Assembly (NCBI RefSeq): GCF_028737205.1
Contig: NZ_JAQZAL010000006.1
Coordinates: 62,001 to 126,000, forward strand
Source: Actinomycetospora lutea
Lineage (GTDB): Bacteria; Actinomycetota; Actinomycetes; Mycobacteriales; Pseudonocardiaceae
Length of the DNA stretch: 64,000 nucleotides
Reading direction: 5' to 3'
Position 1 is the stretch's first letter. Every line of letters starts with the position of its first letter. The notes under the pieces were generated by a model. That model did not search any database. It was not told the origin of the DNA and saw only the letters and a list, made by a program, of their open reading frames with translations. This document shows, in pieces, positions 18,014 to 58,156 of this stretch. The position numbers and the translations under genes are program-made.

Positions 18014-18052
18014 GGAGACGGAGCGGAGCGGAATTCGATCATCGAGACCGCG
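18014..18052 (+). repeat. dispersed GC-rich repeat, copy next to rpoC stop
   Basis: Contains GGAGACGGAGCGGAGCGG followed by ATCATCGAGACCGCG, 2 bp after the rpoC stop. It matches the copies at 30308 and 42027, which share GCGGAGC and the ATCGAGACC tail. Non-coding here. Confidence 0.6.
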
Positions 18053-18070
18053 CTGTAGTCCGCACGACAC

Positions 18071-18107
18071 CGGAGGGCGTCCCCGCTGCTGGCGGGGGCG
18101 CCCTCCG
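18071..18107 (+). terminator. rpoC terminator hairpin
   Basis: A 16-bp stem (18071-18086 with 18092-18107) with one G-U pair and loop TGCTG. It lies 60 bp after rpoC and is followed by TCGTGTGTG rather than a U-run. Confidence 0.8.
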
Positions 18108-18286
18108 TCGTGTGTGCAGGGCCGCACGCCGAGATCAGGAGGCCGAGGGGCGCCGGCGCGCCGGCCCTTGCCCGGCGTCGGTCCCGCGCAGATCTCGAGA
18201 TCACGAGCACGCCATGTCCCCGGGGTCGCCGCGCGACGCACACCAGGTACTCGTGATCACGCGACGGTGTCGTGCGCGCCCGCCCG

Positions 18287-18400
18287 CGAAGGGCACCTTC
18301 GTTCGCAACCGGCAGCGCGCCGGACCCCGCGCGTCGGACCCCGCGTCGGGGAGCGAGGGCGTCCTTCGCTGCGCAGGACGCGGCCAGGGAGTCCCTCGCT
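18287..18400 (+). repeat. cluster of small GCGAGGG-type palindromes
   Basis: Three short palindromes: CGAAGGGCACCTTCG (18287-18301), AGCGAGGGCGTCCTTCGCT (18352-18370) and a region around AGGGAGTCCCTCGCTG (18386-18401). All share the pattern (A)GCGA(A/G)GG, a 1-3 nt loop, then the reverse complement. A second cluster lies at 37147-37196. Confidence 0.6.
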
Positions 18401-18510
18401 GCGTCACCCCCGGCGACGTGCTGCGCCACCCCGGACCCCGCCGCGCGGGCGGGAATCGCCGGCGCCGGGGCGGCGTTGTACCGCTCACGAGGACACGGGT
18501 CGGGCGCGGG

Positions 18511-18538
18511 TTGCAGGTCGCTCGGGCCACGGTATCCT
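18511..18538 (+). promoter_or_regulatory. candidate rpsL promoter
   Basis: TTGCAG (18511-18516), a 16-bp spacer and TATCCT (18533-18538) resemble a housekeeping sigma promoter. It would give a long leader of about 350 nt. A weaker -10-like TACCCT at 18714-18719 could be a second, closer start. Confidence 0.42.
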
Positions 18539-18895
18539 CGCCACCAGTCCGGTCGGTGCGGTGCAGTCGACCCGCGCCGGCATGGCCGTCGAACCGGCGG
18601 TCGAGGACCACGGAGGGGCCGCGGCGCAGGACACCGGCGGCGTCGCCGGGCCGTTGCAGGCGGTCTCCGGCACCCTGATCCGACCCGCTGCAACGTGCCC
18701 TCACGCACGCGCGTACCCTGGTGTCCAGTGCCCGACGTGGTCGGGTCGCTCCGCGTGCCCCGGATGTGCGGTGCGCCGGTCCGAGGATCCCGAGGACCTC
18801 GGCGCCCCCCGTGTGGCCGGTCGGTACGCCAGGTGTGCCGGACGCGGAGCAGCAGCCCGATCAGACAGCAGCAGAGGAACGGAAACAGCCGGTCG

Positions 18896-55165: not shown

Positions 55166-55211
55166 GCGAGCGACCGGACCCACCGACGCGACCAGGGAGA
55201 ACGAGGACACC

Positions 55212-55508
55212 ATGACCAGCCCGGACAACATCAAGGTCCGCTTCGGCGCGCTCCAGCAGGCCAGCCAGGACATCACCAGCTCGCACGCCGCGATCGAGGC
55301 GCAGCTCCAGGACGTCCGCACCGCGGTGGGGCAGCTCGCCGTGTGGGACGGCGCGTCGTCGGACTTCTACCGCCAGCAGCAGCAGCAGATCGACACGGCG
55401 TGGAACGATCTCAAGGAGCTGCTCGCGCAGATCCGCGGCCGCACCGACCAGGCCACCCAGCAGTACATGGAGACCGAGTCCGGCGTCGGCGCGATGTTCC
55501 GCGCGTGA
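55212..55508 (+). CDS. WXG100 family protein (ESX-4 substrate, EsxT-like)
   Basis: 98 residues from the ATG at 55212 ([20 protein letters not shown]), the standard WXG100 length. The W45-x-G47 turn is in [12 protein letters not shown], and YxxxE (YMETE, residues 85-89) follows helix 2. The second helix is Gln-rich ([16 protein letters not shown]). It lies 46 bp after its partner gene and about 155 bp before rplM. Confidence 0.93.
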
Positions 55509-55557
55509 GGCGCGTGCCCGGGTAGGGGGTGGTCGGTGCCGGCCACGGGGCGACGCG

Positions 55558-55563
55558 TACTCT
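55558..55563 (+). promoter_or_regulatory. candidate rplM -10 element
   Basis: TACTCT in the esx-rplM spacer, about 100 bp before the rplM GTG. A weak -35. The 154-bp spacer suggests rplM-rpsI-glmM has its own promoter rather than depending on ESX expression. Confidence 0.33.
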
Positions 55564-55662
55564 GGAGGATCGTTGCGCGGTGTACGTCCCGCGCCTGCTC
55601 GACCCGCTCGACCCACCGGTCCCGAGCCGACCCGCCCAGCCGTCCGTGACGAGGTAGCTTCC

Positions 55663-56106
55663 GTGCGCACGTTCAGTCCGAAGCCCGGCGACATCGATCG
55701 CGCCTGGCACGTCATCGACGCGTCCGACGTCGTGCTCGGCCGCCTGGCCAGCCAGAGCGCGACGCTGCTGCGGGGCAAGCACAAGCCCACGTACGCGCCG
55801 CACGTCGACACCGGTGACTTCGTGATCATCGTGAACGCGGAGAAGATCGCCCTCACGGGCAGCAAGCGCGACGACCGCTTCGTCTACCACCACAGTGGCT
55901 ACCCGGGCGGGCTCAAGGCCCGCACGGTGGGCGAGGAGCTGGAGCGCTTCCCGGCGCGCCTGGTCGAGAAGGCCATCAAGGGCATGCTCCCGAAGAACCG
56001 GCTGGGCCGGGCGATGGGCAGCAAGCTCAAGGTCTACGCGGGCCCCGAGCACCCCCACGCCGCGCAGAAGCCGGTGCCGTACGAGATTCGACAGGTGAGC
56101 CAGTGA
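55663..56106 (+). CDS. rplM: 50S ribosomal protein L13
   Basis: 147 residues from the GTG at 55663, 7 nt after GAGGT; the longer upstream frame lacks conserved content. L13 is an early 50S assembly protein. Conserved parts include [54 protein letters not shown] and the [14 protein letters not shown] end. Its stop overlaps the rpsI GTG. Confidence 0.96.
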
Positions 56107-56738
56107 CCACCCCTGACGACGCGACCGACCTGCCCGAGGTCGCCGACAACGACGCGGCGCAGACGCTCGCCGAGGCCGCCGACCTGCCCGAGGGCGCCGT
56201 GGGCGGCACCCCGGTGTCGGCCACCGACGACCCCGCCAGCGACGGGCCGGCCGACGACGAGGTCGTCGCCGACGTCGTGAGCTCCGACGCCGACGAGGAC
56301 ACCGACGGCGACGTCTTCGGCGAGACCGCCGCGCCGGTGTTCGCCGGGATCGACCGCCCGGTGCAGACGGTCGGCCGCCGCAAGGAGGCCATCGTCCGGG
56401 TGCGCCTCGTCTCCGGCACCGGGCGCATCGTCTGCAACGGCAAGGCGTTCGAGGAGTACTTCCCGAACAAGGTGCACCAGCAGCTCATCCGCGAGCCGCT
56501 GGTGGTCACCGAGCGCACCGAGCAGTTCGACGTCTTCGCCACCCTCACCGGCGGCGGCACGTCCGGCCAGGCCGGCGCCCTGCGCCTCGGCCTCGCCCGC
56601 GCGCTCGTCGAGGTCGACCCCGACGACCGCCCGGGCCTCAAGAAGGCCGGCTTCCTCACCCGCGACGCGCGGGCGACGGAGCGCAAGAAGTACGGCCTCA
56701 AGAAGGCCCGGAAGGCTCCTCAGTACTCGAAGCGCTGA
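56103..56738 (+). CDS. rpsI: 30S ribosomal protein S9 with long acidic N-terminal extension
   Basis: 211 residues, against about 130-150 usually. The S9 core starts near residue 82 ([20 protein letters not shown]) and ends with the P-site tRNA-contacting RKAPQYSKR. The first ~80 residues are strongly acidic and Ala/Asp-rich (for example [18 protein letters not shown]), probably disordered. The GTGA overlap with rplM supports translation of the long form; its stop shares the A of the glmM start. Confidence 0.95.
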
Positions 56739-58156
56739 TGGCGGGAGACGCCGGACACAGCACGCCGAGAGGGGAGCGGGGCTCGACCCCGCCTCCGCGG
56801 CTCTTCGGCACCGACGGTGTCCGCGGCCTGGCCAACGCCGACCTCTCGCCCGAGCTGGCGACCGCGGTCTCCGCGGCGGCCGTGGGCGTGCTCGCCGAGC
56901 GCGCCCGGGCCGAGGGTCGGCGGGGTGCGGCCGCGCGACCCGTGGCGGTCGTCGGCCGCGACCCGCGCGCCAGCGGCGAGATGCTCGAGGCCGCGGTCAC
57001 CGCAGGTCTCGCCGCCGCCGGGGCGGACGTGCTGCGCGTCGGCGTGCTGCCGACGCCCGCCGTGGCGTTCCTGACCGCCGAGTTCGACGCCGACCTCGGC
57101 GTCATGATCTCCGCGTCGCACAACCCGATGCCCGACAACGGCATCAAGCTCTTCGCCGACGGCGGGCACAAGCTGCCCGACGCCGTCGAGGACGCGATCG
57201 AGAGGCGTCTCGGCGAGGCGGGCACCACCGGGCCGCGGCCCACCGGCCGGGAGATCGGGCGGGTGCGCGACGTCCCCAACGCGCTCGACCGCTACGTCGA
57301 GCACCTCGCCGGCGCGACGCCGACGCCCCTGACGGGCCTGCACGTCGTCGTCGACTGCGCACACGGCGCCGCGTCGACCGCCGCGCCCGGCGCCTACGCC
57401 GCGGCGGGGGCCCGGGTCACGGCGCTGCACGCCGAGCCCGACGGCTGGAACATCAACGACGGCGTCGGCTCCACCCACATCGAGACGCTCGCCCGCACGG
57501 TGGTCGCCGAGGGCGCCGACCTGGGCATCGCGCACGACGGCGACGCCGACCGCTGCCTCGCGGTCGCCGCTGACGGCAGCGTGGTCGACGGCGACCAGAT
57601 CCTCGCGATCCTCGCCCTCGACCTGCTCGAGCGCGGCGAGCTCACCGACGCGACGCTGGTCGTCACGGTGATGAGCAACCTCGGCCTGCACCTGGCCATG
57701 GCCGACGCCGGCGTCAGCCTGCGCACCACCGCGGTCGGCGACCGCTACGTGCTCGAGGAGCTGCGGGCCGGCGGGTTCGCCCTGGGCGGCGAGCAGTCGG
57801 GGCACGTGGTGCTCCCGACCCACGCCACCACGGGCGACGGCCTGCTCACCGCGCTGCGCCTCATGGCCCGCATGGCCCAGAGCGGCCGCACGCTCGCCGA
57901 CCTCGCCGCGGTGATGACGCGGCTGCCCCAGGTGCTGGTCAACGTGCCGGTGGCCGACAAGGCCGCGGTCGGGTCGTCACCCGAGGTCGCCGACGCCGTC
58001 GCGGCCGCGGAGGCCGAGCTCGGCGGCCGGGGCCGCGTGCTGCTGCGCCCCTCGGGCACCGAGCAGCTCGTGCGGGTGATGGTCGAGGCGCCGACGCAGG
58101 TGGTCGCGGGCGAGGTCGCCGACCGACTCGCGGGGCTCGTCTCCACCGTCCGCTGA
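56738..58156 (+). CDS. glmM: phosphoglucosamine mutase
   Basis: 472 residues. Converts glucosamine-6-phosphate to glucosamine-1-phosphate for UDP-GlcNAc and peptidoglycan synthesis. The catalytic phosphoserine is S127 ([13 protein letters not shown]), the metal loop DGDADR begins at residue 267, the sugar-binding loop is GGEQSGH, and the phosphate-binding loop is [12 protein letters not shown]. The core starts at [11 protein letters not shown] (residue 20). The first 19 residues ([19 protein letters not shown]) are translated from a long-form copy of the dispersed repeat. It is coupled to rpsI by TGATG. GlmS, which makes its substrate, is 2.3 kb downstream. Confidence 0.96.
56744..56788 (+). 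repeat. dispersed GC-rich repeat, long form, in the glmM 5' end
   Basis: Starts GGAGACG, carries AGCACGCCGAGAGGGGAG (56759-56776) and ends CTCGACC. Matches the eccC copy at 17 of 18 central positions. Encodes the non-conserved GlmM N terminus. Confidence 0.6.

Follow-up and report, generated by a model that had tools for sequence, protein, structure and literature searches.

Dispersed through a 64,000-nucleotide stretch of the Actinomycetospora lutea genome (the window; the genome is labelled G000) are copies of a short repeat, several of which are translated as parts of the ribosomal proteins L4, L5 and L30. With a probability of roughly three in four, we read this repeat as a family of very small non-autonomous mobile elements with a unit of ~30–32 bp, made up of a 27-bp core, a weakly conserved CG before it and ATC-like bases after it; a second subtype has a 45-bp core. 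Each of the nine main window copies was missing at the same site in most of the relatives retrieved, and empty orthologues were found for seven of seven further G000 copies, five of which had been chosen for having direct repeats. For these seven, two relatives were retrieved for locus L018 and four (G016, G012, G015 and G007) for the others. The net gain at filled sites was mostly 36 bp for the 27-bp core and 54 bp for the 45-bp core. The genus sample comprised 18 Actinomycetospora genomes, including that of A. straminea (G015), whose L6 protein is 98% identical to the L6 of the window, the next matches being at ~80%.

Copies in the window and their absence from relatives

The original prediction had placed nine related copies in the window, and the repeat sequence was present at all nine coordinates. 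A covariance model made from 93 copies, including window copies 30308, 32704, 33416 and 42027, which match by construction, recovered all nine at E-values of 7.6e-11 to 0.027. The model found 11 window copies at E < 0.05, two beyond the earlier list, and a twelfth match at 7094 on the minus strand had an E-value of 0.48; in a control of 1.55 Mb from 79 same-region loci outside the genus, nothing fell below E 0.2. The bare 14-base core, searched with up to two mismatches, gave nine window matches against a shuffle mean of 1.97, and none of 100 shuffles reached nine. These nine represent six of the main copies (25651 being counted twice), 60673 on the minus strand and an unrelated match at 9250. 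Both endings that had been described were seen again, as was the longer AGCACGCCGANAGGGGAG subtype, and a Rfam scan of the window returned no match at the gathering score.

The first copy (18014–18040, +, E 0.0018) is of the 27-bp type with a decayed 3' arm (TTCGATC), and lies 3' of the stop of the open reading frame (ORF) at 13908–18011, which is RpoC by position, and 5' of a terminator-like hairpin. The site, read by eye in 10 relatives, was filled in G007 and G012 and empty in eight. The copy of the D subtype (GCGGCACG...TGCCGC) at 21980–22024 (+, E 3.4e-5), downstream of an ORF ending at 21945, was missing in 12 of 13 relatives, the same insertion being present in G007, and its net length was 45–46 bp against five of the six empty relatives compared. 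The L4 copy, near the C terminus (25648–25680, +), adds 33 bp net and its site was empty in all 14 relatives. The N-terminal copy of L5 (30307–30333, +, E 1.8e-10) has CG/CG arms; among 16 relatives only G012 had it, and its net length was 36 bp against five of the seven loci compared. The copy at the L18-S5 junction (32704–32730, +, E 7.6e-11) has GA/TC arms and was absent in 14 of 16 relatives, with G012 and G011 filled, and that of L30, directly after the start codon (33415–33441, +, E 4.1e-9), was absent in all 16 and was 36 bp net against four of seven. The N-terminal TruA copy (42027–42053, +, E 5.9e-10), again with CG/CG arms, was absent in eight of nine relatives and present in G014, the net length being 36 bp in six of seven comparisons.

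The last two of the nine belong to the 45-bp subtype. One lies within an EccC-like (FtsK/SpoIIIE) gene (51284–51328, +) and was absent in eight of eight relatives, with a net length of 54 bp against the four nearest of seven compared. By eye, the ~4–6 bases after GGAGACGNAGC are highly variable in this subtype (e.g. 51284–51328), the remainder being conserved. The other stands directly after the GlmM start codon (56744–56788, +). Of eight relatives, five were empty at this site, G016 and G012 had the 27-bp type and G015 had a short other stretch; the net length was 54 bp against three of six relatives compared, and two of the rest have the 27-bp type. Around the GlmM start (window 56738–56800), three species carry different subtypes at nearly one position. 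The comparison suggests that the GlmM start is a favoured or repeatedly hit site.

The two copies that had not been listed before are a decayed one at 53095–53121 (model match 53092–53124, +, E 0.023), with 28 bp extra against G016 and 27 and 33 bp against two others, and a D-like one at 60666–60694 (-, E 0.039). The latter is antisense in a GlmS-like gene, and what is apparently this site also holds a copy in G012 (L135), with 33 bp extra there against G015. Thus, the earlier claim that all copies follow the gene strand held for the nine main copies and failed for 60666. The proposal of a small mobile element was supported, as the extra pieces of L5, L30, TruA, GlmM, L4 and EccC were absent in most of the close relatives retrieved, and a supposed fragment at 26876 next to rpsS had to be given up: it is identical in A. 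straminea, is not an insertion and is probably the ribosome-binding region of rpsS.

The 20 array regions that were fetched gave a second measure of the unit. Eighteen of them had at least two 27-bp units, with a spacing of 36 bp in 15 of the 18; spacings of 35, 38 and 39 bp also occurred, and a 55-bp spacing spanned a masked stretch. The D-type array L335 had a period of 45 bp. For each subtype, the array period thus matches the net length that an insertion usually adds. Arrays were often open as 12-residue repeats.

Abundance and distribution in the genus

The G000 genome had far more than ten matches by either of two patterns: 181 to MAGCGMAGCGGAGC with up to one mismatch, against 44 for the reversed pattern, and 117 copies of the 27-mer GGAGACGNAGCGNAGCGGAGCTCGACC with up to two mismatches, against none in the control. 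A free-core search for GGACGCG...CGGACC gave 169 matches and its reversed control 171, so loose patterns of that type are uninformative. Another repeat pattern gave 188 matches against four in its control; by eye, 61 of 100 listed were elements, and because the other 39 read as chance, 188 is too high as an element count.

The 27-mer, at up to two mismatches, was found in 18 of 18 Actinomycetospora genomes (1–154 copies) and in two of 279 other genomes of the family, the control being 0. Within the genomes tested, the element family is confined almost wholly to Actinomycetospora. One outsider, G097 from another genus, has a three-unit array (L338), which by eye looks like part of a UvrA-like protein when read on the reverse strand and may have been acquired by transfer. 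G000 has a single copy in a UvrA-like gene elsewhere (L153). The other outsider, G253, has one copy with two mismatches.

Copy number differed sharply between close relatives: G007 and A. straminea are sisters (support 1.0 in a tree of 16 genomes) and have 154 and 1 copies, respectively. At 18014 and 21985 the insertion is common to G007 and G000, yet G015 and G016 are empty, which conflicts with the tree. The element may have been lost precisely, inserted more than once at the same position or passed from one species to another. Outside the window, the site in the precorrin-8X methylmutase gene (CobH) is filled in both G000 and G016.

A short target duplication as a population signal

Target-site duplications were looked for in 112 singleton copies, for which lengths of 3–20 were scanned. 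The flanks agreed beyond shuffles at an offset of 27 + 9 = 36 alone, where the direct repeat had 3.43 of nine matches against 2.86 after shuffling (z 5.2; next highest 1.85), and the agreement lay in positions 4–8 of these nine. When the array-edge copy L269 was dropped, z was 4.5 and the next highest 1.98 (111 copies). Furthermore, 10 copies (including L269) had at least five of six flank matches, against 1.8 expected and in none of 2000 shuffles. The signal was strongest in the copies lying outside one open frame (z 5.05, n = 76), and it is thus not a codon artefact.

At some sites the duplication could be read by eye. The empty site of L008 is GACGAG, with GACGCG and GACGAG around the element; that of L018 is CGAGGA, with CGAGGA and GGAGGA around it; and L024 has a readable duplication GAGC. 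At CobH, the flank pairs of G000 and G016 each have their own local variant, GGAGC and GGGGC, respectively. L008 and L018 differ from G016 by a net 42 or 32 bp, which we read as 36 bp plus a second small indel adjoining the site. Thus, the element has a short, mostly eroded target duplication of ~4–6 bp, which shows in the population of copies and need not be present at every one.

Paired arms and the core

The arms of the unit were examined in 150 listed genus copies that had been found with the arms left free and were tallied by hand. Positions 4–5 and 22–23 of the 27-mer were fully paired in 139 of the 150, against 114.5 after shuffling, and none of 10000 shuffles was as high. The paired copies were GA/TC in 126, CG/CG in six, CA/TG in six and TA/TG in one. 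The fetched sample was paired in 93 of 95 copies and added GG/CC and TG/CG; it is cleaner because most of the half-paired departing rows are absent from it. The covariation score of the arms was 0.177 (93 copies), and versions in which the pairing was slid scored no higher than 0.038. Some G.U pairs occur among the proposed pairs, and the inner pairs are mostly invariant.

The core GCGNAGC was nearly fixed in 112 copies, with G10, G15 and C16 in 112, C11 and G12 in 111 and A14 in 109. Its free letter N13 was C in 56, G in 39 and A in 17, and it falls where a GNA loop permits any base. The available part of PMC4686876 describes GNA loops that have two or more G-C pairs as extraordinarily stable and gives 78 °C as the melting temperature of the GCGAAGC mini-hairpin. 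When complementarity between the left and right flanks past the arms was looked for, no consistent diagonal was found.

Orientation, reading frames and host proteins

Of 111 copies, 40 have the genes on both sides in the direction of the element and 3 have both in the opposite direction; 26 of the 40 co-oriented copies lie in one continuous frame. All three forward frames are in use. Stops were found in only 2–7 of 112 copies per frame over the six frames; because they are rare in all six, stop codons do not account for the orientation. The use of all three frames together with the rarity of stops argues that the peptide is not selected as such and is incidental. Peptides from the forward frames look hydrophilic and those from the reverse frames more hydrophobic, and for this reason selection probably maintains the direction of the element relative to the gene.

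The family models matched at filled genes were HMG-CoA lyase, NuoC, CobH, HisI, L5, L30, L4 and GlmM, and further models were the tRNA pseudouridine synthase TruA, the FtsK/SpoIIIE protein EccC and a UvrA-like protein, the last below the family cut-off. L018 and L025 had no NCBIfam match; they were named by eye as an ABC ATPase and an arabinosyltransferase, and ABC_tran and arabinosyltransferase families occur among the neighbours. The match of L4 to PF00573 ends at residue 285, just ahead of the insertion, and the family match of L30 begins at residue 16. The repeat had been thought to be tolerated only where the protein is flexible. This was supported only in part: the insertion lies outside the matched conserved domain in L5, L30, GlmM, L4, NuoC, CobH and HisI, and inside it in EccC and HMG-CoA lyase. 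Placement was mixed in general, with stop/start junctions (L18-S5, GlmM) and gene interiors (EccC, HMG-CoA lyase, the UvrA-like gene) both occupied. L4, L5, L30, TruA, GlmM, NuoC and HisI form a natural series of core proteins in which insertions have been tolerated.

Possible mode of movement and alternative explanations

The moving form could be a folded single strand with a GC-GNA-GC tip. An enzyme from elsewhere would cut this strand and join it to a staggered target site, and fill-in would leave the duplication of ~4–6 bp. The 36-bp unit could then amplify in tandem. Insertions near gene ends or at tolerant spots would survive as peptides of 12 or 18 residues in any frame, since net gains of 36 and 54 bp are divisible by three and the unit seldom has a stop in any frame. 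A host function is not required to explain the element. Going further, and only tentatively, the element might be among the smallest transposing units that duplicate their target. It would then be a DNA hairpin of ~32 nt, single-stranded and with a GNA tip, and its enzyme would belong to neither the Y1 transposases nor the reverse transcriptases. A net gain of 36 or 54 bp would keep the frame and let the element colonise essential genes, and copies could also be lost precisely, so that A. straminea could have one copy and its sister G007 154.

Several observations weigh against a mobile hairpin of this kind. The main evidence against the fold is that folding energies were not below those of shuffles for six typed consensus forms (z -0.55 to +1.46 for DNA and -0.52 to +0.55 for RNA). 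Two of the eight proposed pairs often fail, being unpaired in 41 and 24 of 93 copies. Of five pairing measures, two were no better than shuffles: both-side changes (212/500) and further pair types (496/500). The 11 copies of the hand tally that were not fully paired keep one of the two pairs (GA/CC in seven; TA/TC, CA/CG, CC/CG and GG/AC in one each), so that 13 of the 24 rows departing from GA/TC are fully paired. As regards the target duplication, most copies have none that is visible, a clean insertion in G013 had none by eye, the in-frame subset alone was not significant at offset 36 (z 1.38, n = 35), and repeats at that offset could also be produced by array contraction. Net lengths other than the usual ones were 33 bp (L4), 39 bp (L025, L149 and L132) and ~45 bp (D subtype), and the non-coding 18014 site gave 32–38 bp. 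Finally, the searches with Y1 and RVT_1 models and among neighbouring ORFs found no mobilising enzyme.

The rival explanation that survives best, which we nevertheless hold to be unlikely, is a derivative of a DDE insertion sequence resembling a miniature inverted-repeat transposable element (MITE), in which the arm covariation would reflect matched ends and not a fold. The target duplication signal agrees with it, as do the imperfect inverted ends GG..GA / TC..CC, the existence of several end subtypes, the 45-bp subtype, which keeps these ends around another interior, and folding energies no better than shuffles. Against this, the interior of the 27-bp type is nearly invariant, GNA tip included, and ~30 bp would be very short for pairing two ends. 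Moreover, no transposase occurred among the 25 most-matched of 156 Pfam families in 92 ORFs near 40 G000 loci, the genome not having been searched for DDE transposases.

A mode like that of short interspersed elements (SINEs), in which the hairpin is first transcribed and a reverse transcriptase, that of a group II intron or another one, then copies the RNA into staggered nicks, is improbable. Co-orientation with genes, the duplication signal, the G.U pairs and three RVT_1 matches in G000 (L300, L304 and L305) would suit it. RVT_1 was found, however, in only four of the 18 genomes, three of them besides G000 having one match each, one of which was below cut-off, and in none of G007, G002, G005, G012 and G016, which have 78–154 copies; it does not track copy number.

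Very improbable, too, is movement on single-stranded DNA by a Y1 (HUH) tyrosine transposase, as in repetitive extragenic palindromes (REPs) and their REP-associated tyrosine transposases (RAYTs). Size, hairpin form and intragenic copies are as in the REPs described in the available part of PMC3733652. PF01797 matched in none of the 18 genomes, five of 14 control genomes being positive, and the element has no GTAG tag; it thus looks like a REP without the REP mobiliser. Y1 insertion is not known to leave a target duplication, whereas the Actinomycetospora element has a duplication signal. The Y1 route is largely refuted for the present genomes, and an extinct or very divergent Y1 enzyme is possible.

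An ordinary coding sequence or regulatory signal conserved at gene junctions, as several copies at starts or stops on the gene strand might suggest, has practically no standing: it is refuted for the nine main window copies by their absence at the same sites in most relatives, the repeat is read in three frames, and the near relative G015 has a single copy.

Comparison with known small repeats

The REPs of the GTAG and CGTC superfamilies are described as palindromes of 20–40 bp, in many copies and sometimes intragenic, and the CGTC group as having no known transposase, stems of 8–9 bp with AT in the first positions and a CCA tail (Di Nocera et al, 2013, PMC3733652, available part). The Actinomycetospora element shares with these the small size, the many copies and the intragenic sites. 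Its arms are unlike the stems, AT start and CCA tail given there for the CGTC group; the 27-mer starts with GGAG or GGAC, and the reverse-strand CGTC lies inside the unit and not at an unpaired end. It also differs from the REP/RAYT system in having a target-duplication signal and no RAYT in 18 genomes. Actinobacteria are not among the phyla named in the available part of PMC3733652, nor does the word "actinobacteria" occur in its main text. The Rickettsia palindromic elements, as presented in the available parts of PMC10969869 and PMC3733652, are selfish, ~150 bp long and inserted in frame into unrelated genes (Ogata et al, 2000). In-frame insertion into unrelated genes is thus common to both, and the two differ, by these partial descriptions and not by sequence, in length (a core of 27–45 bp against ~150 bp) and host. 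MITEs resemble the element in the target duplication; the ends of the element are only partly inverted, and no partner insertion sequence was seen among the recurrent neighbours, the genomes not having been searched for DDE transposases.

Among the titles and abstract openings listed by searches of the open-licence literature, no description of this repeat family was found. Small mobile repeats without a known mobiliser, such as the CGTC REPs and the Rickettsia elements, are an open problem. In Actinomycetospora, sister species with 154 and 1 copies can be compared, sites in many genes are found both filled and empty, the arms covary and the target footprint is measurable, so that gene content and resequencing could point to the mobilising enzyme.

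Two further systems are close in size or placement. The small dispersed repeats of cyanobacteria that Elhai and colleagues treated in 2008 are reportedly hairpins of a few tens of bp with precise insertion. The mycobacterial interspersed repetitive units (MIRUs) are 40–100 bp long and lie at gene junctions with overlapping stop and start codons, in the direction of the genes and with open frames through them. Some copies of the Actinomycetospora element likewise sit at such junctions (L18-S5, GlmM), with gene direction and open frames as in the MIRUs; the element differs from them in its 27-bp core, dispersed occurrence, covarying arms and copies inside genes.

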